The notes under the pieces: model-generated
What the model saw: the letters and a program-made list of their open reading frames with translations, nothing else
What the model was told of the DNA's origin: nothing
Databases searched by the model: none
Made by a program: the position numbers and the translations under genes
Shown here: in pieces, positions 6,527 to 22,019 of the stretch
How the letters are laid out: each line of letters opens with the position of its first letter
Position numbering within the stretch: the stretch's first letter is position 1
NCBI RefSeq assembly: GCF_000148725.1
Contig: NZ_GL476319.1
Coordinates: 81,172-124,058 of the forward strand
Length of the DNA: 42,887 nucleotides
From: Roseibium sp. TrichSKD4
Lineage (GTDB): Bacteria; Pseudomonadota; Alphaproteobacteria; Rhizobiales; Stappiaceae
Direction: 5' to 3'

Positions 6527-7309
6527 TTAGGCGGCTTGCTTGCGGTGTTGCAAGAGCCGTTGTGCGATGGGTTTTCGTTTGATCCTTTCTCGATTGCGCA
6601 GGACTTGTTCACCGCGCACATGGTCCATGCCCTTGTCGTCGAGCCAGTCGGCCAGCTCACCGGCGAAGTAACTTGACCCATTGTCCGACAACAGTCTTGG
6701 CCGGTGGCGGACACTGGCCTGATTACAGCCTGAAGCCTGTAAGGCCAGTTCCAACGTATCCGTGACATCACTGGCCAACATCGTCGTACACAGCTTCCAC
6801 GCGATGACATAGCGGCTGTAATCATCAAGGATTGTTGACAGGTAAAACCAACCCCAGCCAATAACCTTCAGATAGGTGAAGTCTGTCTGCCACAGCTCAT
6901 TGGGCGCTGTGGTCTTGTTCTTGAACTCGTCAGCTGCCTTGACCACGATAAAGGCCGGACTGGTGATGAGGTCATGGGCTTTCAGCAACCGGTAAACACT
7001 GGCCTCAGACACGAAGTACTGCTTTGTGTCCGTAAACTGGACAGCCAGCTCCCGAGGTGAGAGTTCCGGTTCTTCCAGGGCCAGATCAATGACCTGTTGG
7101 CGGATATCATCGGGGATCCGGTTCCAGACCCGTGCAGGCATGGGGGCCGTGTCCTGCAAGGCATCTATGCCACCGGTTTGATATTTGTCATACCAGACGT
7201 AGAAGGTTGACCTTGGAATACCCAGCCGATCCAGCGTCTGTCTGACTGGAAGATGGGACTGCTCCACCAGTCGAATGATTTCAAGTTTCTCGGAGGCGGG
7301 ATATCTCAT
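6527..7309 (-). pseudogene. IS3-family OrfB integrase with in-frame internal deletion
   Basis: The N-terminal helix-turn-helix (KLEIIRLVEQSHLPVRQTLDRLGIPRSTFY) and the rve integrase core are present, with the first catalytic Asp in LWQTDFTYLK and the second in LLSDNGSSYFAG. After GMDHVRG, relatives continue with the PYHPQTQGKIERWHQ-type block holding the catalytic Glu. Here the protein jumps directly to NRERIKRKPIAQRLLQHRKQAA, the normal C-terminus. Roughly 70-80 residues are therefore missing near 6605-6625 without breaking the frame. Lacking the third DDE residue, the protein should be catalytically dead. Its ATG overlaps the orfA stop (ATGA). Confidence 0.85.
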
Positions 7310-7777: not shown

Positions 7778-8659
7778 TCAACCATCACGCTTGCCGTAGT
7801 AGAGCGCAACAACATGCTCTGCTTCGGCAAAAAATAGCCATCTTGACGTGAAGGTTCCTAGCCCGAATATGGTGATTGCAAAACATGTTGTCAGCGTGCC
7901 GCCAGGTAGAGCTACCACAATCAAAAACGGAAGGAGGACGATGGTGACGAACGCTATGCATCTCAGTTTCAAAGCGTGTCTTCGCCCTACCACATAGACC
8001 ATTTCCTTCAGGAGGTAGTTGGATCCTGTGTGCGGAGGCTCGAACATGCGGACCGAACCGCGATCTCCAAGCCCAGTTGCTGTTTCCATGGAATGCCCAC
8101 GCGCGGCGAACTGACGATCACCGATCCGCCAATGGGCCAGCTGAGCCAGTCCGGCGCAGGTTAGAAGCACAAGAGCTGCAGATGTGTGCTGCATCAAAAT
8201 CGCGCCGCCCGCAAGCGACAGGGTCAACATGTGGATTGGAGTGATCCAGTGGTTCCAGCGCGGCACGGTTTTCAGTTGGGTGTAGATCATCGCGGTAGAG
8301 ACGACCGTTGCCATCGCAAGACCAGCGCCAAGCCATCCGAGAACCGATATCGTGATGCCGCGAAAAATGTTGTTGATTGCAAAGATTCCCATCACCGAAA
8401 GCGTAGCAGCTGAAAGCCATGCCTCTCTGGAAAGCCAACTCGTTTTCCATTGACTAAAAGCGCGCCAGGCCCGCTGCGGATTGTCAAGATGGAAGGTCGA
8501 GGCAATCAACCCGGTAATAGTGAATGTGAAGGCAATGGCGAAGGGCATGAAAGCTGCCACGCCCTGAACGTCTAGAACACCGATCCCGAGGAAAGCAAGC
8601 ATTCCTAAGCCGAGTCCTGAGAGAACGGTGAAGATGATAACCGAGGGAGCCGGATGCAT
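7778..8659 (-). CDS. soeC: SoeC, membrane anchor of sulfite:quinone oxidoreductase
   Basis: A DmsC/NrfD-like anchor of about 293 residues with eight predicted membrane helices, from PAPSVIIFTVLSGLGLGMLAF near the N-terminus to FAITIFGLGTFTSRWLFFAEAEHV near the C-terminus. It should hold the SoeAB catalytic dimer on the cytoplasmic face and pass electrons to quinone. The ATG at 8659 overlaps the soeB TGA (TGATG), so I prefer it to the upstream GTG-type extension to 8689. It is last in xsc-ackA-soeABC. Sequence alone would also allow a DMSO- or polysulfide-reductase anchor; the operon context gives the sulfite assignment. Confidence 0.8.
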   Translation of the reverse strand: MHPAPSVIIFTVLSGLGLGMLAFLGIGVLDVQGVAAFMPFAIAFTFTITGLIASTFHLDNPQRAWRAFSQWKTSWLSREAWLSAATLSVMGIFAINNIFRGITISVLGWLGAGLAMATVVSTAMIYTQLKTVPRWNHWITPIHMLTLSLAGGAILMQHTSAALVLLTCAGLAQLAHWRIGDRQFAARGHSMETATGLGDRGSVRMFEPPHTGSNYLLKEMVYVVGRRHALKLRCIAFVTIVLLPFLIVVALPGGTLTTCFAITIFGLGTFTSRWLFFAEAEHVVALYYGKRDG

Positions 8660-9408
8660 CAGAGTGCCTCCAATGCCATATCCAACCATCCGAGGAAGCC
8701 CTTGGGCTCCTCGGCGATCGGGGTGAGAGAAGATGAGTCAGCGGCTTGCGCAGTCAGCCTGTCCTTGGGCCTTGGCGGTAGATATTTGTTGGTGGGCGCT
8801 GTGCCCTGTTCAGGCATCAGGTCAAACCCGCCACGTTCGGCCACCAGCTTCGACACGTCGCTGTCCGGGTCTCCAAGATCACCGAAATGGCGCGCCCCGG
8901 CAGGACAGGTGCGCACACAGGCCGGCACACGGTCCACCTCTTCCAAGTTCTCGTTATAAATCCGGTCAACACACAAAGTGCATTTCTTCATCACACCTGC
9001 GACCTGATCAAGCTCGCGGGCACCATAAGGACACGCCCAAGCGCATAACCCGCACCCGATACAGGCGCTTTCATCGACCAGTACAATTCCGTCCTCGGAT
9101 CGTTTATAACTCGCCCCCGTCGGGCAAACAGTCACACACGGTGCCGTGTCGCAATGCAGGCAGGACTTTGGAAAATGAACCGTCTGGCTGCACCCGCCGC
9201 CAGTTGGCGCGATCTCGTAGGAATGTACCCTGTTCAGAAAGCTGCCAACGGGATCGGCTCCGTAGGCATCTACATCGCTGAGCGGCACGCCGTAGTTTTC
9301 CGTGTTCCAGCCCTTGCAGGCGACGACACAGGCATGGCACCCGACACAGGTATCCAGATCGATGACCAGCCCGAGCTTGCGCTGCGTTGTTTCGGGAAGT
9401 TCAGTCAT
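8659..9408 (-). CDS. soeB: SoeB, four-cluster [4Fe-4S] electron-transfer subunit
   Basis: A 249-residue DmsB/NrfC-type ferredoxin subunit with four cysteine groups: DTCVGCHACVVACKGWN, SCLHCDTAPCVTVCPTGA, ACIGCGLCAWACPYGA, and CTLCVDRI with CVRTCPAGA. This is the pattern for four [4Fe-4S] clusters linking the molybdenum site of SoeA to the quinone site of SoeC. No signal peptide is visible, consistent with a cytoplasmic-facing complex. Its ATG overlaps the soeA stop by four bases and its stop overlaps the soeC ATG by one, so the three subunits are translationally coupled. Confidence 0.88.
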   Translation of the reverse strand: MTELPETTQRKLGLVIDLDTCVGCHACVVACKGWNTENYGVPLSDVDAYGADPVGSFLNRVHSYEIAPTGGGCSQTVHFPKSCLHCDTAPCVTVCPTGASYKRSEDGIVLVDESACIGCGLCAWACPYGARELDQVAGVMKKCTLCVDRIYNENLEEVDRVPACVRTCPAGARHFGDLGDPDSDVSKLVAERGGFDLMPEQGTAPTNKYLPPRPKDRLTAQAADSSSLTPIAEEPKGFLGWLDMALEAL

Positions 9409-12242
9409 GCTTCCACCTTTTGCTGAACAGTCGACGGGCCTTCGCCGACGGGCGACACCTGCGATGATGTGGTCGGCTTGCTGTGTTTTCGCGGCCGGGA
9501 CTTTTCGATCCGGACCCGCAAATCAAACCACGCAGCCTGTCCGGTGATCGGGTCGGAATTGGACCATCTCAGACCGTCTCCCTTGGGCGGAAGAAGCTCG
9601 TTGATCAGGTGGTTGAGGAGAAAGCCCTTGGTGGCCTCCGGTGCGCCAATCTCAAGCGCCCATGCCCCTCGTCTCTTGCCGATGGCGTTCCAGGTCCAGA
9701 CCGTGTTCTCGTTCAGTCCGGCCATGTGCGCAACCGGCACCCGGATTTCTCCATGCACCGAAGTTACCTTGGCCCAATCCCCGTCCTTGAACCCCTTCTC
9801 TTCCCAGATCTTGGTCGGAACATAGAGAGGGTTTATGCCATGGATCTGGCGCAGCCACGCATTCTGGCTGCCCCATGAATGGTACATGGCCATGGGGCGC
9901 TGGGTCAGTGCATGGACGGGATAGGCCTCCTCGTCTATTTCGCGGTCTTCCAGCGCCGGATACCAGATCGGCAGCGGGTCCATGCAATCAATGATCCGCT
10001 GCCTGAGGTGATCCGGCGGCTGCCTGTCGCAATGCCCTTCCGCAGCAAGCTGCATGCGGCGCAAGGGTTCCACGTAAAGCTGGAAGAGATAAGGCTGCGG
10101 CTTGTCGTAAAAACCAAGACCAACAGCCCAGTCCTGATAGGCCGTGTTCCATGGCTTGTAGAACGCAGCTTCCTCCGGCACATGCTCGACAAAGAACCCG
10201 CCATTTTCGATATAACGGTTCAGCTGGTCCGGATTGACCTCGCCTCTCCCGCTTTTCGAACCATCTCCACGGAACCCTGCCAGCGGGCCAATGCCCGGTC
10301 GGCGCTGGTGGTTGACGATATAATCCGCGTAGTCGGCGTAAATCGCCTCGCCCTTGTTATTGACGAAACCGGGAAGACCCAACCTCACGCCAAGATCAAC
10401 CAACACCGACTGGAAGCCGCGTACATCCCGGTCCGGTTCAATGACCGGCCAGCGGATTGCATCAGCCGCGGCATCCGCCTCACAGATCGGTCGATCCAGC
10501 AAAGAGATGCAGTCATGGCGCTCCAGATAGGTGGTATCGGGGAGGATCAGGTCCGCAAAGGCGACCATTTCGGACGAATAGGCATCCGAATAGATGATCT
10601 TCGGGATGACATAGTCGCCGTTCTCGTCCTTGTCTGTCAGCATTTCCATGACACTGCTGGTGTTCATGGACGAGTTCCAGGACATGTTGGCCATGTAGAG
10701 GAACAGCGTGTCGATCTTGTAAGGATCACCGGCATGGGCGTTGGAGATCACCATGTGCATCAGCCCATGGGCCGAGAGCGGGTTCTCCCAAGTAAACGCC
10801 TTGTCAATCCGCGCGGGCGTGCCGTCTTCCTTTAGGGCAAGGTCCTGCGGGCCACGCACGAAGCCAAGATGCGGCCCGTCCAGTGGGTGTTTGGGCTGGG
10901 ACTTGCAGTGCGGTGTTGGATGCGCTTCCACCGGCTTCGGGTAAGGCGGCTTGAAGCGGTACCCGCCGGGGACTTCCACCGTTCCAAGCAGGATCTGCAG
11001 CACATGCAGCGCTCGACAGGTTTGAAACCCGTTGGAATGGGCGGAGATCCCGCGCATGGCATGAAAACTGACTGGGCGACCCAACATTTTCTCGTGATGC
11101 TCGCCGCGAAAGTCCGTCCACGACTGGTCCAGTTCAAAGGCCTCATCAAACGCGACACGAGCGACTTCCGCTGCCAGTGCCCAAATGCGCTCGGCCTTGA
11201 TCCCGCATTTTTCCGCGACCTTTTCAGGGGCATAGTCTTCGGACAGGAAATGCTCCGCCATATGCTGGAACACGGTGCGATGTGTCGCCCCGTCCATATC
11301 AACAGAGCCAGCAAGATCTGGATTGACGCCCGCCTTGTCGAAAGGCTCAAGCACACCGGTCTTGCGGTCAACAACCAGCGGCTTGCCGGTCCCATCGCGC
11401 AGCAGAAGCCCCTTCTCTGGCGAGCCGGGCGTCTCGTTTACCAGACAGGGCGCATTGGTGTAGCGGGAGAGATAGTTCAGATCGATCTTTCCGGCCTTCA
11501 TGAGAAGGTGGATCATCGACAGGATCAGCAGACCGTCGGTTCCCGGTGTTATCCCGACCCATTCATCCGCAACAGCGTTATAGCCGGAGCGGATCGGGTT
11601 GACGCCGATGACCTTGCCGCCATTTCCCTTGAGCTTCCCGATCCCCATCTTGATGGGGTTGGAATCGTGGTCTTCCGCAACACCGAAAATCACAAACACC
11701 TTTGTGCGATCCCAGTCCGGTTGCCCGAATTCCCAGAACGCCCCGCCCATCGTGTAAATGCCGGCGGTCGCCATGTTGACGGAGCAAAAGCCGCCATGGG
11801 CAGCATAGTTTGGCGTTCCAAAGTTCTGCGCCCAGAAGCTGGTGAAACTTTGCGACTGGTCGCGCCCGGTAAAGAAGGCCAGTTTCTCCGGGGCATTATC
11901 ACGCAAGGGCCCAAGCCATGAAGTGGCAATTTCAAGAGCCTCGTCCCACGAGATTTCCTTGAACTGACCCGATCCCCGCGGACCTGTCCGCAAGAGAGGC
12001 GCCTTGAGTTTTGACGGGGCGTTGACCTGCATGATACCGGCGGAGCCCTTGGCACACAGGACGCCCTTGTTGACCGGGTGATCGCGATTGCCCTCGATAT
12101 AGGCAACCCGCTTTTTCCCATCCGTGCCGTCTTTCATGTGGACGTTGATCCCGCATCGGCAGGCACACATGTAGCAGGTCGTTTTCCGAACCTCGTCGGA
12201 AACCTTTGGCGAGGTGTCGAGGGTCGGGTTCGGACTGGCCAT
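9405..12242 (-). CDS. soeA: SoeA, molybdopterin subunit of sulfite:quinone oxidoreductase
   Basis: About 945 residues of the DMSO-reductase superfamily. Near the N-terminus Cys24-x2-Cys27-x3-Cys31-x32-Cys64 forms a [4Fe-4S] site (TTCYMCACRCG and LCAKGS). Cys154 in HGGFCSVNMA is the likely molybdenum ligand. There is no twin-arginine signal, so the enzyme should face the cytoplasm, as known for SoeABC and unlike PsrA or PhsA. The ATG at 12242 overlaps the ackA TGA; the TTG one codon upstream is not needed. Sharing an operon with xsc, which makes sulfite, points to cytoplasmic sulfite oxidation to sulfate. Without that context, a generic molybdopterin oxidoreductase is all the sequence proves. 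Confidence 0.83.
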   Translation of the reverse strand: MASPNPTLDTSPKVSDEVRKTTCYMCACRCGINVHMKDGTDGKKRVAYIEGNRDHPVNKGVLCAKGSAGIMQVNAPSKLKAPLLRTGPRGSGQFKEISWDEALEIATSWLGPLRDNAPEKLAFFTGRDQSQSFTSFWAQNFGTPNYAAHGGFCSVNMATAGIYTMGGAFWEFGQPDWDRTKVFVIFGVAEDHDSNPIKMGIGKLKGNGGKVIGVNPIRSGYNAVADEWVGITPGTDGLLILSMIHLLMKAGKIDLNYLSRYTNAPCLVNETPGSPEKGLLLRDGTGKPLVVDRKTGVLEPFDKAGVNPDLAGSVDMDGATHRTVFQHMAEHFLSEDYAPEKVAEKCGIKAERIWALAAEVARVAFDEAFELDQSWTDFRGEHHEKMLGRPVSFHAMRGISAHSNGFQTCRALHVLQILLGTVEVPGGYRFKPPYPKPVEAHPTPHCKSQPKHPLDGPHLGFVRGPQDLALKEDGTPARIDKAFTWENPLSAHGLMHMVISNAHAGDPYKIDTLFLYMANMSWNSSMNTSSVMEMLTDKDENGDYVIPKIIYSDAYSSEMVAFADLILPDTTYLERHDCISLLDRPICEADAAADAIRWPVIEPDRDVRGFQSVLVDLGVRLGLPGFVNNKGEAIYADYADYIVNHQRRPGIGPLAGFRGDGSKSGRGEVNPDQLNRYIENGGFFVEHVPEEAAFYKPWNTAYQDWAVGLGFYDKPQPYLFQLYVEPLRRMQLAAEGHCDRQPPDHLRQRIIDCMDPLPIWYPALEDREIDEEAYPVHALTQRPMAMYHSWGSQNAWLRQIHGINPLYVPTKIWEEKGFKDGDWAKVTSVHGEIRVPVAHMAGLNENTVWTWNAIGKRRGAWALEIGAPEATKGFLLNHLINELLPPKGDGLRWSNSDPITGQAAWFDLRVRIEKSRPRKHSKPTTSSQVSPVGEGPSTVQQKVEA

Positions 12243-13381
12243 CAATGGACCTCCATGAGTGACAGGGCGTTGCGGACGATCATCGCCTCTTCCTCTGCAG
12301 GCACGATCCAGACCTGAACCTTCGACTGCTCTGTGTGGAGACGGGTGGAATTTGCGGAATTGGCATCAGGGTCAAAATCGACGCCGAGCCAGGAAAGATC
12401 GGAGACGATGCGTTCTCGGGTTCCGGCATCGTTTTCGCCAATGCCGCCGGTGAAGGCGATCGCATCCGCGCCGCCCAGGGCCGCTATCATCGATCCAGCG
12501 TGGCGGACGGCCCAGTAACAGAAGTGATCGACAGCGAACCGGGCTTCCGGCGTATCTGCCGCTTTCAACTCCCGCATGTCGGACATGCCGCCGAGCGCCA
12601 GAAAACCGCTCTTTCGATTCAGCAGATCGGAGGTTTCGCTCGCGCCCAAATCTTTGACAAGCTTCAGGACGGCATTGCCGTCAATGGAGCCGCACCTTGT
12701 GCCCATGGTCAGGCCTTCAAGCGGCGAATAGCCCATGGTGGTTGCAACAGACTGCCCATCGCGTATAGCGCAGATGCTGGCACCATTTCCAAGATGAAAG
12801 GCCAGAAGGCGTTTAGGCAGCGGCTCGCCGGACAGCTCCGGCAGCAGATGCACAAGACTTTGATAGGAAATGCCATGAAAGCCGTAGCGCCGCAGCCCTT
12901 TTTGGGTCAGCTGCGGCCGGATCGCATAAGTCGTGGCAACGTCGGGGTTTGTCGCATGAAAGGCGGTATCGAAGCTGACATATTGGGGCAGGTTAGGCGC
13001 CAGTTTGGCGACTGCACGGATCCCGGACAGATTGTGGGGGTTATGAAGCGGCGCGAAGGGGGAGCACCGCTCGATCTCCATGAGGAGTTCTGCAGTCACA
13101 AGGTGGGGGGCGCTCAAGCTTTGCCCGCCGTGAACGACGCGGTGGGCGGCAGCGGCCAGATCGGACAGCTTGACCCCACCCGCATCAAGAGCACTCAGGA
13201 TCGCAGCCAGCGCGTTCTCATGGTTTGCAAGTGCAATGTCCTGCTTCCGGGAACCAATCGTCAGCCGGGAAGAGCCGCCGATCTCGACGGCACTCCCAGA
13301 CACTTTCTTCGTCAAATTCTCTCCAAACAGAGCGAATTTGACTGAGGACGAACCAGAATTCAGAACCAGAACATTACGCAT
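12242..13381 (-). CDS. ackA: Acetate kinase in the sulfoacetaldehyde operon
   Basis: Converts acetyl phosphate and ADP to acetate and ATP. The N-terminus has the ASKHA phosphate-binding motif VLVLNSGSSSVKFALF. Later blocks include AAHRVVHGG, SFDTAFHA, RRYGFHGISY, FHLGNGASICAI, TMGYSPLEGLTMGTRCGSID and FTGGIGEND, all typical of AckA. The length of about 379 residues is normal. I choose the ATG at 13381 because it gives MRNVLVLNSG. It lies about 20 bases after xsc and overlaps soeA. In many sulfonate degraders pta stands here; with ackA alone, the acetyl phosphate from Xsc would be used for ATP synthesis, leaving acetate to be activated elsewhere. Confidence 0.93.
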   Translation of the reverse strand: MRNVLVLNSGSSSVKFALFGENLTKKVSGSAVEIGGSSRLTIGSRKQDIALANHENALAAILSALDAGGVKLSDLAAAAHRVVHGGQSLSAPHLVTAELLMEIERCSPFAPLHNPHNLSGIRAVAKLAPNLPQYVSFDTAFHATNPDVATTYAIRPQLTQKGLRRYGFHGISYQSLVHLLPELSGEPLPKRLLAFHLGNGASICAIRDGQSVATTMGYSPLEGLTMGTRCGSIDGNAVLKLVKDLGASETSDLLNRKSGFLALGGMSDMRELKAADTPEARFAVDHFCYWAVRHAGSMIAALGGADAIAFTGGIGENDAGTRERIVSDLSWLGVDFDPDANSANSTRLHTEQSKVQVWIVPAEEEAMIVRNALSLMEVH

Positions 13382-13402
13382 CACAAGGTCCAACCTGTCA
13401 CA

Positions 13403-15181
13403 TCAGGCTGGGGTCTGGGGTCGCATATCCGACTTGGAAATGCCCGCAACCACAACCGGCTTCTTCATAGCATCGCGCCGGAAGGGCTCGCCGAGCTCCT
13501 GATTGATCAGCGCTTCGATCAAGGTGGTTTTGCCTTCCTTCATCTGGCGCTCGATGGCCTTGTCCAGTTCGGAAGTCAGCTCGTCCATCGTCCGTGCCTG
13601 CACGCCTTCCAGGCCACAAGCCTTGGCAATCCCAGCGTAGCTGACATCGTCGTCGAGTTCAGTACCGACGAAATTGTCGTCATACCACAGGGTCGAATTG
13701 CGTTTTTCCGCGCCCCACTGGTAGTTCCGGAAGACCACCATGGTGATTGCAGGCCATTCGCTGCGGCCAATGGCGGTGAGTTCGGTCACCGCAATGCCAA
13801 AGGCGCCATCGCCTGCAAAGCCGACAACCGGCGTATCGGGGCACCCAATCTTCGCGCCCACGATGGATGGCAGGCCATATCCGCAAGGGCCGAAGAGGCC
13901 CGGTGCCAGATATCTCCGACCTTCCTCAAAGCTCGGATAGGCGTTGCCGATGGCGCAGTTGTTGCCGATATCGGAGCTAATGATGGCCTCACGCGGCAGA
14001 GCAGACTGAATGGCGCGCCATGCCTTGCGCGGGCTCAGCCAATCGGGCTTGGCCGCACGGGCGCGTTCATTCCATGAGGTGCCCGGATCATCGTCCTCGT
14101 GATCCATCGACGACAGTTGCTGCGCCCATGCAGATTTCGTCTGCGCGATCATTGCCTTGCGATCGGCACGGCCTTGATCACCTGCTGACGGGCTCAGCTT
14201 GGCAAGGATGCTGTCTGCCACCTTCTTCGCATCACCGACAATACCAATGGAAATTGTCTTGGTCAGGCCAATACGGTTCGGATTGATGTCCACCTGAATG
14301 ATGCTGGCATCCTTCGGCCAGTAATCAATCCCGTAACCCGGCAGGGTCGAGAACGGATTGAGGCGTGTGCCGAGCGCGAGAACCACATCGGCCTTGGAGA
14401 TCAGCTCCATACCGGCCTTCGATCCGTTGTAGCCAAGGGGACCGGCGAAAAGCGGATGTGAACCGGGAAATGCATCATTGTGCTGGTAACCGCAGCAGAC
14501 AGGTGCATCGAGACGCTCGGCCAAAGCCATGGAAGACGGGATGGCACCTGCCAGCACGACTCCTGCCCCGTTCAGGATGACCGGGAACTTGGCGTTGCTG
14601 AGAAGGTCGGCGGCTTCGGCAATTGCCGTTTCACCACCAGCTGGGCGCTCGAACTCGACAACTGTCGGTAGGTTGATGTCGATAACCTGTGTCCAGAAAT
14701 CACGCGGCACGTTGATCTGTGCCGGAGCGCTGCAGCGGTGAGCCTGCTGGATCACGCGGCTCAGAACTTCCGCGATACGGGTTGGATCGCGCACTTCTTC
14801 CTGGTAGGCCACCATATCCTTGAAGAGAGCCATCTGCTCAACTTCCTGAAAACCGCCCTGACCGATGGTCTTGTTGGCCGCCTGCGGTGTTACCAGCAGA
14901 AGCGGTGTGTGGTTCCAATAGGCCGTTTTGACGGCTGTCACGAAGTTAGTGATCCCCGGACCATTTTGGGCAATCATCATGCTCATCTTGCCGGTGGCAC
15001 GGGTGTACCCATCCGCCATCATTCCGCCGGAGCATTCGTGAGCGCAGTCCCAAAAGGTGATACCGGCCCTGGGAAACAGGTCGGAGATAGGCATGAACGC
15101 CGAACCGATGATCCCGAACGCATGTTCGATCCCGTGCGACTGCAGCACCTTTACGAAGGCTTCTTCGGTCGTCATCTTCAT
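13403..15181 (-). CDS. xsc: Sulfoacetaldehyde acetyltransferase
   Basis: A thiamine-diphosphate enzyme of 592 residues that converts sulfoacetaldehyde and phosphate to acetyl phosphate and sulfite. Domains run in the usual order: PYR domain with the cofactor-activating Glu in CAHECSGGMMADGY, a central domain (ILNGAGVVLAGA to DVVLALGTRLNPFSTLPGYG), and the PP domain with the ThDP motif GFAGDGAFGIAVTELTAIGR followed by FRNYQWGAEKRN. The last block and the overall length favour Xsc over acetolactate synthase. The ATG at 15181 follows GGGAG. It is first in xsc-ackA-soeABC and is preceded by a TauR-type direct repeat at 15266-15298. Confidence 0.95.
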   Translation of the reverse strand: MKMTTEEAFVKVLQSHGIEHAFGIIGSAFMPISDLFPRAGITFWDCAHECSGGMMADGYTRATGKMSMMIAQNGPGITNFVTAVKTAYWNHTPLLLVTPQAANKTIGQGGFQEVEQMALFKDMVAYQEEVRDPTRIAEVLSRVIQQAHRCSAPAQINVPRDFWTQVIDINLPTVVEFERPAGGETAIAEAADLLSNAKFPVILNGAGVVLAGAIPSSMALAERLDAPVCCGYQHNDAFPGSHPLFAGPLGYNGSKAGMELISKADVVLALGTRLNPFSTLPGYGIDYWPKDASIIQVDINPNRIGLTKTISIGIVGDAKKVADSILAKLSPSAGDQGRADRKAMIAQTKSAWAQQLSSMDHEDDDPGTSWNERARAAKPDWLSPRKAWRAIQSALPREAIISSDIGNNCAIGNAYPSFEEGRRYLAPGLFGPCGYGLPSIVGAKIGCPDTPVVGFAGDGAFGIAVTELTAIGRSEWPAITMVVFRNYQWGAEKRNSTLWYDDNFVGTELDDDVSYAGIAKACGLEGVQARTMDELTSELDKAIERQMKEGKTTLIEALINQELGEPFRRDAMKKPVVVAGISKSDMRPQTPA

Positions 15182-15535: not shown

Positions 15536-17005
15536 TCATCGCATTGCTTCGCCAATCCGCTTTGCAATCAGGGCCATTCCTTCGGGAATATTGGCTGACG
15601 GGATGGAGGAGTAGGCAAGGCGATAGTATCCCGGCACCTCGCTGTTCCTGGCAAAGAAGGCGCGTCCCGGTTCGATCAGCACGCCGTCATTACGCAGGTT
15701 GAGTGCCAGCTCGGAACTGTCGATATCCTCCGGCGTGCGCATCCAGAAGGACGAACCGCCAAAGGTCCCCTGCCTCGGCATCAAGAGTCCGTTTTCCGCC
15801 ATGCACTGTTCCATGAGAGACCGGCGCTTCTGGTAGATCCGGCCCATGCGGGCGATCTGCGCATCGTAGTGTCCGAGAGAGAGAAAGTAGGCCGCCGTGC
15901 GCTGGATCAGGCCGGGAGGATGGCGCAGCACCGATGACCGCAAGGCCCTTGCCTCGCGAACGAAAGGTTCCGGGGCCACAAGATATCCTAGCCGAAGGCC
16001 GGGAAAAAGTGATTTGGAAAAGGACCCCGTGTAGATCACTGACCCACTTTGATCGAGGGACTTGAGCGCAGGAGATGGCGACTTGAGGAAGGAAATCTCG
16101 AACTCGTAATCATCTTCAACAATCACGAAGCCGTTTCGGGCGGCAAGTTTCAACAGCGCATGACGACGGGATACCGGCATCGTCGCATTGCTCGGGCAAT
16201 GGTGGCTTGGAGTGGTGAAGACAACGTCGATCTGCGCTGGAAGTTTTTCCGGCGGGAGCCCTGCCGCATCCACATCAACCAAAACTGTATTGCATCTAGT
16301 CTGATTGAGGATCTGCCGCAACCCCGGAAAGCACGGGTTTTCGATCACGGCGACCCGGCGCTGGGTCAACAGCAGTTGCGCGGTGATCCAGAGCGCGTTT
16401 TGCGCGCCCAACGTGATGAGGATTTCTTCCGGCTTTGCGGCAATACCGCGCCTTGGCAGGATTTGCCGCGCAATGAACTCAACGAGCATGGGGTCGTCCC
16501 GCTCGTAATAGTCCGTTGCCAGAATATCGAAGTCCTTGCGCCCGACCGCCTGTAATGCGCATGTCCGCCAATTGCTGTGGTCAAACAGGCTCGGATCAGA
16601 TTGTCCGTAAATGAAGGGGTACTTGTAATCGCGCCAGTTGGACGGACGCACGAGTGGAACCTCGTCGGAAAAGCGCTGACTGATCACGCGGGACCAATCG
16701 ATCTGATTGGCTTCGCCTTGCGCGGGAAGCTCAAACTTCGGACGGCTCGGTGCAGTGTTTGCAACGAAATAGCCGGAGCGTCCGCGGGAAATCAGATACT
16801 CGTTTGATACCAGTTCCGTATAGGCAATTGTTACGGTGATGCGCGCAACGCCGAGATGATCGGCAAGCTTTCGGCTGGATGGCATCTTCTCACCTGGCAG
16901 GCACCTGCCGGAGAGGATCGCCTCCACAATCAGCCGCTGAATCTGGTGCTGAAGCGTTGTTTCACTGTCGGGCCGAAGGAAAAAGGTTTCTGCCGGGATC
17001 GCCAT
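15536..17005 (-). CDS. tauR: TauR, MocR-type (GntR-aminotransferase) regulator of taurine genes
   Basis: A 489-residue MocR/PdxR-type protein. The N-terminal GntR winged helix covers about residues 12-80 (QHQIQRLIVEAILSGRCLPG, PSSRKLADHLGVARITV, YLISRGRSGYFV). A fold-type-I aminotransferase domain follows, with the PLP-binding Lys in TGSFSKSLFPGLRLGYL and FVIVEDDYEFE. Such regulators bind PLP and an amino compound and act at direct repeats. Its place between xsc and tpa, together with matching repeats at both promoters, supports TauR, the taurine-dependent activator. Partial repeats just upstream of its own start (17008-17039) may allow autoregulation. Confidence 0.9.
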   Translation of the reverse strand: MAIPAETFFLRPDSETTLQHQIQRLIVEAILSGRCLPGEKMPSSRKLADHLGVARITVTIAYTELVSNEYLISRGRSGYFVANTAPSRPKFELPAQGEANQIDWSRVISQRFSDEVPLVRPSNWRDYKYPFIYGQSDPSLFDHSNWRTCALQAVGRKDFDILATDYYERDDPMLVEFIARQILPRRGIAAKPEEILITLGAQNALWITAQLLLTQRRVAVIENPCFPGLRQILNQTRCNTVLVDVDAAGLPPEKLPAQIDVVFTTPSHHCPSNATMPVSRRHALLKLAARNGFVIVEDDYEFEISFLKSPSPALKSLDQSGSVIYTGSFSKSLFPGLRLGYLVAPEPFVREARALRSSVLRHPPGLIQRTAAYFLSLGHYDAQIARMGRIYQKRRSLMEQCMAENGLLMPRQGTFGGSSFWMRTPEDIDSSELALNLRNDGVLIEPGRAFFARNSEVPGYYRLAYSSIPSANIPEGMALIAKRIGEAMR

Positions 17006-17179: not shown

Positions 17180-18559
17180 TCAGCCGAAAACCCGTGTCAG
17201 CGCGACATCGATAGCGCTGGTGATCTGATCAATGTCATCCGTCGTCGCAATCAGGGCCGGTGACAGGCAGAGTGTGTTGTTGAGGCCCGGAAGAGCGCGG
17301 TTCGTGGCTCCGATGATGACGTTTTGTGCCATGCATTCGCCAACCACCGCCTGAACCAGCTTCTCGGCTGCCGGTTCCTTTGTGGCCCGGTCCGCCACCA
17401 GTTCCAGCCCACAGAAGAGACCAAGACCGCGGACGTCACCGACGGCGCGATGCTTTTCCTGCAGGGCATGGAGATTGTCCATCAGGCGCGCGCCCATGGC
17501 CGTGGTGTTGTCGAGAAGGTTTTCGTCTTCGATGATCCGCATGTTCTCCAGCGCAGCTGCCGGCCCGGCGGTGCATCCGCCATAGGTGGAGATATCGCGG
17601 AAATGGCTCATGTGATCGGACGGATCGTCCTTGAACATGTCGAAGACCTTTTCGGTCGTCACAAGGCAGGCAACGGCGGCATAGCCCGAGGCCACGCCCT
17701 TCGCCATGGTCACGAAGTCCGGCTTGATGCCGTAATGCTGATACCCGAACCACTTACCGGTTCGCCCGATGCCGCACACCACTTCGTCGAGATGGATCAG
17801 GATTTCGTATTTTTCGCAGATTTCCTGAACCCGCTCCCAGTAGCCCTTTGGCGGGGTGATCACTCCGCCACCGGCGGTTACCGGTTCAAGACAGATCGCA
17901 CCGACCGTATCCGGCCCTTCCCGCAGTACCACTTCCTCAATCGCGTGTGCGGCGCGTTCGCCGTAGGCTTCCGTGTCCCACTGGGCGCGGTATTCGCAGC
18001 AATGCGGCACCTCCACGAAACCCGGAGTATAAGGCCCGTACTGGGCGTTGCGCTCCGGCTGCCCGCCGGCAGAAATCGCGCTGATAGAGGACCCGTGATA
18101 ATCCCGCTCGCGGAACAGGATCTTGTGCTTCTTGCCGCCATGACGCTTGTGAGCGATCTGGCGGATCATCTTGAAGGCCTTTTCGTTGGCTTCTGTGCCG
18201 GAGTTGATCAGGTATACTCGGCTCATGCCCGGCATCTTCGAGATCAGGCGCTCGGAAAATCGGGCACCGGGGATGGACCCTGCGGAATTGGCAAAATAAT
18301 TCAGTTTGATCAGCTGGTCGCGCACCGCATTGGCAATGCTCTCGCGGCCATAACCAACATTGACCGTCCAGACCCCGCCAGATACGCCATCCAGATGCTC
18401 CCGACCCGTCGCATCCCAAAGGCGCATACCCTTTCCCTCGACCATGATTTTCGGATCGTTGGTCTCAAGCGACTTGTGCTGTAGGAGATGGTGCCAGACA
18501 TGGGCACGATCAGCCTCAATAACGTCAGTCAGATCATTCGGCGATGATGCAATATTCAT
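17180..18559 (-). CDS. tpa: Taurine:pyruvate aminotransferase
   Basis: Transfers the amino group of taurine to pyruvate, giving sulfoacetaldehyde and alanine. This class III PLP aminotransferase has LDGVSGGVWTVNVGYG, INSGTEANEKAFKMIRQ, RDYHGSS, ICLEPVTAGGGVI, HLDEVVCGIGRTGKWFGYQ and the Schiff-base Lys in FVTMAKGVASGYAA. The length of about 459 residues matches Tpa. I choose the ATG at 18559, behind AGGAAA, over the codon at 18580. It is transcribed away from tauABC across a shared control region holding a TauR-type repeat, and ends at a strong terminator. Omega-amino acid:pyruvate aminotransferases are close relatives, but the neighbours settle the substrate. Confidence 0.93.
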   Translation of the reverse strand: MNIASSPNDLTDVIEADRAHVWHHLLQHKSLETNDPKIMVEGKGMRLWDATGREHLDGVSGGVWTVNVGYGRESIANAVRDQLIKLNYFANSAGSIPGARFSERLISKMPGMSRVYLINSGTEANEKAFKMIRQIAHKRHGGKKHKILFRERDYHGSSISAISAGGQPERNAQYGPYTPGFVEVPHCCEYRAQWDTEAYGERAAHAIEEVVLREGPDTVGAICLEPVTAGGGVITPPKGYWERVQEICEKYEILIHLDEVVCGIGRTGKWFGYQHYGIKPDFVTMAKGVASGYAAVACLVTTEKVFDMFKDDPSDHMSHFRDISTYGGCTAGPAAALENMRIIEDENLLDNTTAMGARLMDNLHALQEKHRAVGDVRGLGLFCGLELVADRATKEPAAEKLVQAVVGECMAQNVIIGATNRALPGLNNTLCLSPALIATTDDIDQITSAIDVALTRVFG

Positions 18560-18879
18560 GACATTTTCCTTTCGTGCCAAGTCGCCACCAACAAATACTC
18601 GGTGTTTTGAAAAGCTCGCCGGAGCAAGTGACGGGAAAGATCACTCCGCCCTATTCATCTCCACGTCCTGCTTACCTCCAAATCAAACTGCACGCGTTTT
18701 GAGCAACATATAGGGCCAGTTCTGAACTTACCTTAGGTCCAGTCCACTGTTTCTATTGTCAGACGGCCCGTCAGCCGCGACCATTTTTCCCTACGCAGGA
18801 AAGCCGTGGTGAAAAATCACGGTCATAAGACGGAATAATCCGCGTGCCTGCGCCAGTTCTGGGAACAATGGGGAAATCT
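18560..18879. other. Divergent tpa / tauABC control region
   Basis: This 320-base region between the divergent tpa and tauA genes holds the TauR-type repeat at 18710-18742, about 150-180 bases from either start codon. A GTGA-AAAA-TCAC element lies near 18805-18825 on the tauA side. I found no small gene. Confidence 0.6.
18710..18742 (-). promoter_or_regulatory. TauR-type direct repeat between tpa and tauA
   Basis: Read on the minus strand, an exact CTGGACCTAA lies at 18733-18742 and CTGGCCCTAT (8 of 10) at 18710-18719. The step is 23 bases, identical to that at xsc, although the order of strong and weak copies relative to the minus-strand gene is reversed. One site could serve both divergent promoters. 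Confidence 0.75.
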
Positions 18880-19875
18880 ATGACCATCAAATCAAAGCTA
18901 CTTGGTACGTTGGCTGCGCTTTCCGTGATCAGCGGCGTACAGGTTTCACATGCAGCAGAGGAGCTGACCGTCGCATACTTCCTGGAGTGGCCGATGCCGT
19001 TCCAGTACGCGAAGGTTAAGGGCACATACGAAAAGGAGCTGGGCGTTCCGATCAAATGGGTATCGTTCGACACCGGCACGGCGATGTCTGCCGCCATGGC
19101 ATCCGGTGATGTCCAGATCGCTGTGAGCCAGGGAGTTCCGCCCTTCGTGGTCGCAGCCTCCGCAGGACAGGACCTCCTGGTGGTCGACGTTGCCGTCAGC
19201 TACTCGGAAAACGACAACTGCGTTGTCGCCGAAGCCCTCGAAATCGACAAGACCAATGCCAACGAACTGGAAGGCAAGAAGGTCGGCGTGCCGATTGGCA
19301 CCGCTGCCCATTTCGGTTTCCTTGAGCAGATGAAGCATTTCAATGTCGACATCACTAGCATGGAACTCGTCGACATGGCCCCGGCGGACGGAGCTGCCGC
19401 CTTTGCACAAGGCAACCTCGACATGGTGTGCGGCTGGGGCGGTGCGCTTCGCCGGATGAAGGAACATGGCAACGTGTTGCTGACAGGTGCGGAAAAGGAA
19501 GAACTCGGCATTCTCGTTTTTGACGGCATCAGTGTTCCTTCCGACTTTGCCTCCAAGGAAGGCGAACTCCTGACCAAGTTCCTGAAAGTCACGGCTGACG
19601 CAAATTCCATGTGGCGCGCGGGCGACAACCGGGCCGATATGCTGGAAGTAATCGCCAAGGATGCCGGTATGGAGCTGGCAGACACGGAGTCGACCATCGA
19701 CACCTTCCCGACGCTTGAGGAAACCCTCAGCGCGAAGTGGATGGATGGCAACGTCCAGAACTTCATGCTCGGCGTCGCAGACGTGTTCCAGGGAGCCGGG
19801 TCCATCCCCGAGGCTCTCGACACCTACACTGCCGCCGTCGATGCCAGCTATCTGGCAGCAGCCGGTTCGCAATAA
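18880..19875 (+). CDS. tauA: TauA, taurine ABC transporter periplasmic binding protein
   Basis: A Sec signal peptide (MTIKSKLLGTLAALSVISGV, cleavage after SHA-A) is followed by an NMT1/SsuA-type binding domain: LTVAYFLEWPMPFQYAKVKG, WVSFDTGTAMSAAMASGDVQIA, GKKVGVPIGTAAHFGFLEQM and GNLDMVCGWGGAL. Captures taurine for TauBC. Of several in-frame starts (18844 GTG, 18868, 18880), the ATG at 18880 gives a compact signal peptide behind GGGGAAA. It heads tauABC. A strong stem-loop follows the gene, as is common after binding-protein genes that need higher expression. Confidence 0.92.
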   Translation: MTIKSKLLGTLAALSVISGVQVSHAAEELTVAYFLEWPMPFQYAKVKGTYEKELGVPIKWVSFDTGTAMSAAMASGDVQIAVSQGVPPFVVAASAGQDLLVVDVAVSYSENDNCVVAEALEIDKTNANELEGKKVGVPIGTAAHFGFLEQMKHFNVDITSMELVDMAPADGAAAFAQGNLDMVCGWGGALRRMKEHGNVLLTGAEKEELGILVFDGISVPSDFASKEGELLTKFLKVTADANSMWRAGDNRADMLEVIAKDAGMELADTESTIDTFPTLEETLSAKWMDGNVQNFMLGVADVFQGAGSIPEALDTYTAAVDASYLAAAGSQ

Positions 19876-19916: not shown

Positions 19917-19953
19917 CATGTTTCATGTCTCAAACTGCAGGAGAATGCAGCCT

Positions 19954-20760
19954 ATGGGTGGCCTTCATATTGAAAATGTTTCCATGCGTTTTGACCTGCC
20001 GAACGGGAGCCACGTTCAGGCACTTCAGGACGTATCCATTGATCTTCGCAAGGGGGAGATCATGTCTATCCTCGGACCGTCCGGCTGCGGAAAGACAACA
20101 CTTTTGAACATCGTTGCAGGATTTCTGGCCCCGACCAGCGGTCAGGTCCGCATGAACGGCCATGTGGTGACGGGCCCTGCTGCAGAGCGCGGCATGGTGT
20201 TTCAGAAAGGCGCCCTGTTCGAGTGGATGAATGTTCGCGAGAACGTGGACTTCGGTCCGCGCATGAAAGGCATGCCGAAGGCCGAGCGCAACGGGATTTC
20301 CAATCGCCTGCTGGAAACCGTCGGCCTGAGGGATTTCAAGGAAAAGGCAGTCTATGAACTGTCCGGCGGGATGCAGCAGCGCGTGGCCCTCGCCCGCTGC
20401 CTTGCCAATGATCCCGACGTGATCCTGATGGACGAGCCGCTTGGTGCCCTCGATGCCCTGACCCGCGAGAAGATGCAGGGCCTTGTGCTGAAGCTCTGGA
20501 AGGAAACCGGCAAGACCGTGATTCTGATTACCCACTCCGTGGAAGAGGCCCTGCTTCTGGGCGAACGGCTGCTAGTGATGGCCCCGCGCCCCGGACGCAT
20601 TCACAAGGAGTATCGCCTTCCCTTTGCCGAGCGCGGTGTCGACAATGACCTCAGGGAGGTCAAGAAGAGCGAAGGCTTTGCGGAGACCCGCGAGGAAATC
20701 CTCTCCATGATCTGGGAGATGGAAGAAGAAATCATGGGCAGATCGGAGACAGCAGCATGA
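19954..20760 (+). CDS. tauB: TauB, taurine ABC transporter ATPase
   Basis: An ABC ATPase of about 268 residues with Walker A GPSGCGKTTLLN, Q-loop around VFQKGALFEW, signature LSGGMQQRVALARCLA, Walker B VILMDEPLGALD and the switch His in ILITHSVEEALLL. It energises uptake through TauC. I choose the ATG at 19954 (MGGLHIENVS), nine bases after AGGAGA; the ATGs at 19918 and 19945 are badly spaced from any ribosome-binding site. Its stop overlaps the tauC start by four bases (ATGA). Confidence 0.93.
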   Translation: MGGLHIENVSMRFDLPNGSHVQALQDVSIDLRKGEIMSILGPSGCGKTTLLNIVAGFLAPTSGQVRMNGHVVTGPAAERGMVFQKGALFEWMNVRENVDFGPRMKGMPKAERNGISNRLLETVGLRDFKEKAVYELSGGMQQRVALARCLANDPDVILMDEPLGALDALTREKMQGLVLKLWKETGKTVILITHSVEEALLLGERLLVMAPRPGRIHKEYRLPFAERGVDNDLREVKKSEGFAETREEILSMIWEMEEEIMGRSETAA

Positions 20761-22019
20761 CCGGTCTTGTTGTCCTTTTCGTCTATGTCGCCCTGTTTCT
20801 GCTGGCCTATTTCGGTGTCAGATACATTGTCTCCCGCCGCCAGCAGGCGCAGGATTTCACCAGCCTGAAAACGGTCACCTTCGGTGATGAAAGCGCAATC
20901 CGCCCAGACCGCACCGCCTCCATCATCTCGATCATCGTGGTGTTTCTCATCTGGGGTGCATTCACCGGATCCAGGCTGGTTCCGATCCACGTTCCTGGCC
21001 CATTCATTGGCGAAACGCAGTTCACCTACACAGCGACTGATGGCTCCGGGAATACCGGGGACGCCACTGTTACCGTGATCGTTCATGATCCCGGTGAGGA
21101 TGTCGAAAAACCAGTACCTGCAGCGCGTGACGGCTTTGCCCAAGATGATGCGGCAACCGTTGGCGCCTGGCGTTCAGTGCTTATAAAGGCAACCCGCAAC
21201 GATGGGGACGACGCCAATGTCACCGCCATTAACGGCAAGCCGATCGCGCCGGGCGAAACAGTGGATGTCGCAGATGGTCAGGTGACCATGACGGCCAAGG
21301 GATCCCTCAGCTTCCAGCCTGAAAAGGGTCTCCAGATGGAACCGATCTGGATGCCATCCCCGGAAGCTGTGGTGAAGCGCTTTGGTGAAATCGCCTCTGA
21401 GGGCTATCAGAACTTCACCTTGTGGGAGCATCTGGGCTCTTCCCTTCTGCGTGTAATCGGCGGTTTCCTTCTCGGGTCCCTGATTGGTATTCCGCTCGGC
21501 TATGCCATGGGGCTCTCCAGCTGGGTGCGCGGGTGGTTCGACCCGATCGTGGAGTTCATGCGGCCTGTTCCGCCACTAGCCCTGATCCCGCTTGTCATAA
21601 TCTGGTTCGGCATATGGGAGACAGGCAAGATCGCGCTATTGTTCCTTGCCGCTCTCTGGATCATGACAATCGCCGCAAGAGCCGGTGTTTCGGGCGTCAA
21701 CATCACCAAGGTTCACGCGGCGTATTCGCTCGGAGCCAGCAAGACACAGATCCTGTGGCATATAATTGTTCCAAACTCCCTGCCAGAGATCTTCACTGGG
21801 GCCCGTGTCGCCATGGGCGTATGCTGGGGAACGGTGGTAGCTGCCGAACTGGTTGCCGCGCAAAAGGGAGCCGGCATGATGATCATCGCAGCTTCAAAAT
21901 TCCAGCTGACCGATATCGTGTTGATGGGGATCATTCTGATCGGGATCGTCGGCTACAGCATCGACATCCTGATGCGGATGGCCGAGCGCTTGCTGGTTCC
22001 GTGGAAAGGGCGCTCCTGA
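20757..22019 (+). CDS. tauC: TauC, taurine ABC transporter permease with Ig/cadherin-like periplasmic insert
   Basis: At 420 residues it is much longer than the usual TauC of about 250-280. The C-terminal 220 residues are an ordinary binding-protein-dependent permease (MPSPEAVVKRF onward, with the EAA-loop region AAYSLGASKTQILWHIIVPNSLPEI). An extra N-terminal helix (residues 3-25) precedes the first core helix (53-70). Residues 82-192 are a soluble insert resembling bacterial cadherin/Big_9-type repeats: QFTYTATDGSGNTGDATVTV, then DDAATVG...IKATRNDGDDANVTAINGKPI...GSLSFQPEKG. Basic residues at 27-30 put that loop in the cytoplasm and hence the insert in the periplasm, near TauA. The two halves appear in permuted order. 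Confidence 0.9.
   Translation: MTGLVVLFVYVALFLLAYFGVRYIVSRRQQAQDFTSLKTVTFGDESAIRPDRTASIISIIVVFLIWGAFTGSRLVPIHVPGPFIGETQFTYTATDGSGNTGDATVTVIVHDPGEDVEKPVPAARDGFAQDDAATVGAWRSVLIKATRNDGDDANVTAINGKPIAPGETVDVADGQVTMTAKGSLSFQPEKGLQMEPIWMPSPEAVVKRFGEIASEGYQNFTLWEHLGSSLLRVIGGFLLGSLIGIPLGYAMGLSSWVRGWFDPIVEFMRPVPPLALIPLVIIWFGIWETGKIALLFLAALWIMTIAARAGVSGVNITKVHAAYSLGASKTQILWHIIVPNSLPEIFTGARVAMGVCWGTVVAAELVAAQKGAGMMIIAASKFQLTDIVLMGIILIGIVGYSIDILMRMAERLLVPWKGRS

Follow-up and report, generated by a model that had tools for sequence, protein, structure and literature searches.

A circularly permuted Big_9-like insert in a divergent TauC-type permease of Roseibium sp. TrichSKD4 and its possible role in TauA docking

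Here, we analysed a stretch of 42,887 nucleotides from Roseibium sp. TrichSKD4 (contig NZ_GL476319.1, positions 81,172 to 124,058), referred to as the window, which encodes a taurine-type ATP-binding cassette (ABC) importer. The permease gene tauC is the last in the row tauA-tauB-tauC, its start overlaps the end of tauB by four bases and its frame is uninterrupted. A preliminary description, made from the letters of the sequence, had given coordinates and reading frame of tauC correctly and had read residues 82-192 of TauC as the end of a cadherin-like repeat followed by its beginning. The elements of the gene are as follows, with strand letters (A to G) being our own assignment and 'rows' referring to an alignment of the window protein with 80 further loci.

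20757..22019, + strand: tauC, 420 aa, ATG start; permease of a taurine-type ABC importer with an immunoglobulin-like (Ig-like) insert
20760..20840, + strand: extra N-terminal membrane helix TM0, residues 2-28 (AlphaFold2 helix 2-28; hydrophobic stretch 3-21)
20868..20897, + strand: KTVTFGDESA motif between TM0 and TM1, residues 38-47 (K38-E45 invariant in 81 rows)
20910..20966, + strand: first core membrane helix TM1, residues 52-70 (AlphaFold2 prediction; alignments with CmpB/NrtB start at model residues 30-53)
21000..21332, + strand: insert, residues 82-192, a circularly permuted Big_9/cadherin-like domain according to Pfam, rotation test and AlphaFold2
21003..21086, + strand: first part of the insert, residues 83-110, an F-G hairpin matching the end of Big_9 (strands predicted at 85-94 and 100-110)
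21087..21146, + strand: linker, residues 111-130, where two repeats join in an array (no regular structure predicted)
21147..21329, + strand: second part of the insert, residues 131-191, matching the beginning of Big_9 (strands A to E) in the rotation test
21168..21176, + strand: W138-R139-S140, candidate contact site (R139 invariant, W138 and S140 at least 90% conserved in 81 rows)
21360..21401, + strand: helix of ordinary permeases resuming after the insert, residues 202-215 (AlphaFold2; alignment with ordinary TauC)

Two TauC proteins of ordinary type (L005, L006; 284 aa each) lack TM0, the KTVTFGDE motif and the insert alike. Compared to them, the window protein shows two additions: the N-terminal helix with its motif, and the insert of about 110 residues. 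The extra helix had already been recognised in the preliminary description. Hydropathy places the insert after the second of seven hydrophobic segments, and in the alignment it follows the first core helix and precedes the one that starts after MPSPEAV. The remainder of the protein belongs to the permease core, as BPD_transp_1 (Pfam) matches residues 244-411 with 96.6 bits. The NCBIfam family NF007545 was the top of the 18 families listed for TauC, its 237.4 bits being below the curated cut-off of 342; judged by these scores, the protein is a divergent TauC-type permease outside the curated TauC family.

A scan of the genome_contigs collection returned at least 584 coding stretches, and the best 80 loci all carry the insert. 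A broken or misread gene was thus ruled out, given the open frame and the insert in 80/80 loci. P82, G85, F89, Y91, R139, G160 and G191 are invariant in the 81 aligned members. In 8/10 pairs compared, the insert gave dN/dS ratios of 0.01-0.17 (three of these at dS > 1.3, near saturation), while one of the remaining pairs gave no dS and the other a ratio of 0.35 at a dS of 0.035. Three loci (L083 8001-9221, L078 2964-4184 and L001 7929-9155) encode shortened inserts with gaps around the linker and the strand A-B region, which are devoid of W138 but keep R139. The K38-E45 segment, which is probably cytoplasmic by the topology deduced, is invariant although the adjoining TM0 varies.

The insert is related over nearly its whole length to the repeats PF17963 (Big_9), PF17892 (Cadherin_5) and NF012211 (tandem-95). 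Against a gathering score of 23.6, Big_9 reached 39.5 bits on the insert and 36.7 bits on the whole TauC. The latter match falls into two stretches, and the better one aligns residues 83-107 to profile positions 64-88 of 89, so that the repeat end comes first. This is the order proposed in the preliminary description, and the profile search of residues 82-192 that it had suggested is answered by a match above the gathering score. Big_9 was found at E<=0.01 in 79/81 inserts (window and 80 genome loci). In a rotation test, residues 82-112 were moved behind residues 113-191 and both orders were scanned in 5 of the 81 members. For the window insert, rotation turned two stretches with 36.7 bits into a single one with 49.8 bits, spanning profile positions 6-88 of 89, and the gain was 11-13 bits in all five members: 11.5 bits for L008 (single match, profile 7-88), 12.2 for L042 (22-86), 11.0 for L085 (6-89) and 11.6 for L046 (21-88). 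The step from two pieces to one was confined to the window and L008, as L042, L085 and L046 have in native order at most one stretch that passes alone. When the window insert was rotated at seven other points, the scores were 29.1 to 45.9 bits, with the best of these cuts at the end of the G-A linker. This pattern is what a circular permutation predicts. The window insert does not follow the ordinary strand order of Big_9, since it matches in one piece only after rotation; on the profile evidence it is a permuted relative and not an ordinary member of the family, in support of the permuted cadherin/Ig-like domain suggested earlier. A chance or compositional origin of the resemblance was rejected on the basis of the 79/81 matches and the rotation scores. 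Repeats of the Big_9, Cadherin_5 and tandem-95 type sit in repeat arrays, whereas the TauC insert is a single, permuted copy within a membrane permease.

Where could a repeat in this order come from? When the insert profile was run in native order against genomes, it matched long repeat proteins. A 2293-residue open frame of Roseibium sp. MMSF_3544 (the genome of L009) contains ten matches of almost full length at a spacing of about 114 residues, and open frames of 7695 and 7659 residues in two further genomes match as well. In locus L105, residues 399-500, 501-603, 604-706 and 708-809 match with 43.5-50.8 bits, covering positions 4-112, 3-112, 3-112 and 4-112 of the 121 profile positions, respectively. 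The array units matched in this way run head to tail, start at strand F and end after strand E. The order 'end, then beginning' is therefore also seen at any head-to-tail junction of an array. The earlier statement that ordinary repeats have the reverse order holds within a single repeat but not across a repeat junction. Because tandem repeats match nearly end to end in the order of TauC, we regard the insert as one array period in another phase, which was probably derived from such an array.

The AlphaFold2 model of the insert is mostly beta (pLDDT 86, pTM 0.77) and comprises eight strands, of which those at 131-136, 141-143, 154-158, 168-171, 174-178 and 184-188 belong to the second part. 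As far as strand content goes, the model does not contradict the beta-sandwich of the preliminary description, and it suggests that the insert closes as one domain. Searches of the PDB by sequence returned short, weak matches only, and sequence-order fold searches gave none that was significant. Core homology with CmpB/NrtB places the insert after the first core helix. This homology, the corresponding loop of MalF and the charge distribution point to the periplasmic side, as had been proposed, and not to the cytoplasm.

Insert-bearing permeases are widespread. In the Rhodobacterales family of a Phaeobacter genome, 139/295 genomes gave a match to the insert profile (E<=1e-15), a count that may be low as the best 14 candidates per genome were scored. 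In a sample of the phylum, 15/398 genomes match at E<=1e-12, 13 of them as TauC (seven loci read, two of which are identical, five more with KTVTFGDE, plus the Phaeobacter centre) and two as repeat proteins; in this sample, the best 11 candidates per genome were scored and the counts may again be low. In viral_contigs, 0/125 pattern stretches encoded a relative. Within 80 genomes of the family, 33/33 core matches at 72-91% identity lie in open frames no shorter than 423 residues and in genomes matching the insert profile; the other 7 core matches have 37-52% identity. In a tree of the core only (110 rows), the 96 insert-bearing proteins are set apart from the others by a branch with support of 96/92, present in 96% of 200 bootstrap trees, albeit with warnings for long branches and an unsettled bootstrap. 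One gain of the insert is the simplest account, and losses were not seen in these samples.

The substrate of the importer is deduced from the following neighbouring genes.

18844..19875, + strand: tauA, substrate-binding protein (best NCBIfam match taurine_ABC_bnd TIGR01729, 152 bits; cut-off 304 not reached)
19918..20760, + strand: tauB, ATPase (best NCBIfam match PRK11248 taurine ATPase, 287 bits; cut-off 357 not reached)
17180..18580, - strand: class III aminotransferase oriented divergently from tauA; putative taurine:pyruvate aminotransferase (Tpa)
15536..17005, - strand: MocR-type regulator (best match PdxR NF052282, 349 bits; cut-off 320)
13403..15181, - strand: xsc, sulfoacetaldehyde acetyltransferase (TIGR03457, 934 bits; cut-off 676 passed)

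None of TauA, TauB and TauC reaches the curated cut-off of its NCBIfam taurine family. For the aminotransferase, 0/25 families shown were above cut-off, so that the name Tpa is read from context, as is a TauR-like label for the MocR-type regulator. Tpa and Xsc are described in an excerpt of the literature as successive steps of taurine use (PMC5320631). With Xsc above its cut-off in the company of tauA, tauB, the aminotransferase and the regulator, the neighbourhood is that of a taurine pathway; because of these neighbours, taurine is the putative substrate of the importer, and taurine transport is assigned to this TauC from gene context. Family matches further identified acetate kinase and a molybdopterin oxidoreductase among the flanking genes. 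They lie beyond Xsc in 7778-13393 along with an iron-sulfur protein (within 8601-9500) and a membrane protein, a gene set that we take to be the sulfite dehydrogenase SoeABC. Between the first transporter genes of the window and the taurine cluster, an open reading frame on the - strand (6527-7309) is a candidate integrase or transposase, as read from its letters.

The context recurs elsewhere. Next to 84 insert loci we found TauB 83 times, TauA 80 times, a Tpa relative 52 times, a MocR regulator 48 times and Xsc 25 times, all of which are lower bounds due to set identity thresholds and flanks of at most 8 kb. Xsc is present in 126/139 genomes with the insert compared to 66/156 without (Fisher p 2.5e-19, not corrected for kinship). 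It was counted at E<=1e-100, which 192/295 genomes reached, 186 of them above the curated cut-off; among control genomes, 2/14 matched at E<=1e-100 and none above the cut-off. In Ruegeria pomeroyi, the genes are reported in the order tpa SPO0673, tauA SPO0674, tauB SPO0675 and tauC SPO0676 (PMC4334477). According to a passage of another study, SPO0674 and SPO0676 mutants are impaired with taurine (PMC10130141), and SPO0676 may or may not bear the insert. Values of 91.8 for SPO0674 and 92.8 for SPO0676 are presumably percent growth reduction, and the drawdown values are -3.1 (not significant) and 49.1, respectively (PMC10130141). No Tpa relative was found beside two insert-type importers (L001 7929-13504, L003 1-7191), whose neighbours are annotated as D-cysteine desulfhydrase, amino acid racemase and hisD. 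The inserts and TauA of these importers are further from those of the window than their cores are, and they may transport another sulfonate.

A second type of insert occurs in sister permeases of 642 aa (L114 220-2148, L115 118-2046, L123-L127), in which TM0 is followed by an EVFGDP motif and an insert of about 270 residues. We read this insert as lying in the same loop, although the hydropathy scan did not pick the sister TM1; a Pfam scan of it in two proteins gave no match. On the core tree, the sister family is the nearest neighbour of the insert clade (99/98, long branches). One sister system, L121, was compared: its TauA shares 43% and its TauB 64% identity with the window proteins, as against 29-32% for TauA (five systems with a match) and 42-52% for TauB (six) in ordinary systems. 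Sister permeases were found in 5/295 genomes, 5/5 of which have Xsc and 0/5 of which are among the 139 with the Ig-type insert. Xsc lies 1.5-2.1 kb from the sister permease in three of the five genomes and outside the matches listed for the other two. Both importers are thus probably for taurine and have unlike domains in the loop that holds P2 in MalF.

What might be the function of a domain at this site? In E. coli MalF, P2 comprises residues 100-260, after the third of eight hydrophobic segments, and BPD_transp_1 residues 298-501. Because both domains precede the last five hydrophobic segments and BPD_transp_1, the TauC insert occupies the P2 loop, between core helices 1 and 2. MalF shares with TauC a large domain just before the conserved permease domain and extra N-terminal helices ahead of the first core helix, of which TauC has one and MalF two. 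We take P2 to have an Ig-like fold. The TauC insert, unlike P2, is a permuted Big_9 relative, and MalF_P2 (PF14785) was not listed for TauC or the insert at E<=10. Part of P2 directly contacts MalE according to an excerpt of a simulation paper (PMC3150292), and two titles in a reference list present P2 as interactor of MalE and signal path to MalK (PMC3328499), while a section of another simulation paper has P2 without significant change in the cycle (PMC8134467). By analogy with P2, the TauC insert should touch TauA. Insert and TauA divergence indeed correlate when core and TauB are controlled for (r 0.39, 0/999 permutations as high) in 77/85 operons, the other 8 having been dropped for missing, short or stop-bearing matches. 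The TM0-TauA control gave r 0.10 (53/999), with TM0 being more variable than the insert, the segment adjoining the insert gave r -0.12 (946/999) against TauA, and the insert gave r 0.13 (14/999) against TauB. With 80 rows the values were 0.38 against 0.11, and without 6 divergent rows 0.26 against 0.17. Co-divergence thus moderately favours a link between insert and TauA. A windowed analysis along TauA (12 windows, r -0.08 to 0.34) did not indicate a single lobe, and we do not claim a docking patch.

Based on this, we propose that one Big_9/cadherin-like tandem period is present out of phase, with strands F-G first and A-E after, and that the lone insert would close as a single circularly permuted Ig-like domain. 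Both domain ends would leave through the normal E-F loop, side by side, as a loop insertion needs, and the domain would be periplasmic, in the loop that joins core helices 1 and 2, where it may hold or orient TauA on the permease as P2 does with its binding protein. The insert would accordingly be a docking domain of the MalF-P2 type but of unrelated origin; for this proposal as a whole we see the chances as evenly balanced, and the same holds for docking taken by itself, which draws on co-divergence and analogy. More tentatively, and with somewhat less confidence than we would need to favour it, the loop between core helices 1 and 2 could be a general port for domains that capture binding proteins, acquired at least three times from unrelated sources: P2, the phase-shifted repeat and the domain of the 642-aa sisters. 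An ordinary Ig-like repeat presumably has its ends at opposite poles, and an out-of-register repeat would put both at the membrane-facing pole.

Several observations would also suit a passive domain that aids folding, dimerisation or stability of TauC with no contact to TauA: the insert diverges far more quickly than the core (0.49 vs 0.13 in mean pairwise distance), its length varies and ordinary TauC manages without it. We nevertheless hold this to be unlikely, since the invariant R139 and near-invariant W138 and S140 look more specific than a spacer needs, insert divergence tracks TauA beyond core and TauB, and the insert is kept in all 33 closer core matches of the 80 family genomes. That the insert instead binds another partner or ligand in the manner of cadherin-like adhesins, e.g. 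the cell wall, an outer-membrane protein, calcium or the substrate, appears improbable for a single copy tied to one operon. No further partner gene was found near the 84 loci, where nine window proteins were sought, so that one may be missed. Big_9-type repeats do, however, occur in large repeat proteins, and the best, albeit weak, fold neighbours of the insert are Ig-like split domains of RTX adhesins (FrhA, MpAFP, AhLap), which hold ligand-binding domains according to a portion of the source (PMC12077191). In those adhesins the Ig-like split domain is the host of an insertion, while in TauC the Ig-like domain is the guest and permuted.

The 20-residue linker between the halves would further allow a swap, in which the F-G hairpin of one TauC completes strands A-E of the other in a dimer, and we assume this permease to be a homodimer. 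We rate the swap as distinctly improbable in view of the confident model of a single insert, bearing in mind that a one-chain AlphaFold2 prediction cannot separate swap from closure. Weighing against kinship with Big_9, the fold searches of the PDB gave no significant match; the insert could in that case be an unrelated beta domain whose Thr-, Asp- and Gly-rich hairpins merely resemble the family. Scores above the Pfam gathering score, a rotation point that was chosen beforehand and improved the score most, and nearly end-to-end matches to real arrays make this very improbable. The docking domain of permuted Big_9 ancestry hence remains our preferred reading.

In principle, domains in this loop of importer permeases are already known. 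The novelty lies in the kind of domain, in its being permuted, in its probable mode of origin and in the repeated use of one loop. The preliminary description had called an Ig-like domain in such a permease unusual, which holds in part, the arrangement being common in Rhodobacterales and MalF being a precedent for a domain in this loop. Among the matches listed in the open-licence literature, no title or abstract opening dealt with a TauC insert of Ig-like or permuted kind. As a rule, natural circular permutations are attributed to duplication and trimming. Our results suggest a simpler route, as a unit lifted from an array in another phase would be permuted at once and have ends that fit a loop insertion. 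The sister family with its different insert offers a natural comparison. According to the title of one study, marine prokaryotes of the North Atlantic off Iberia have in taurine a major source of carbon and energy (PMC6647121). If the insert does dock TauA, a common taurine-type importer of the Rhodobacterales would employ a device like MalF P2, but of other ancestry.
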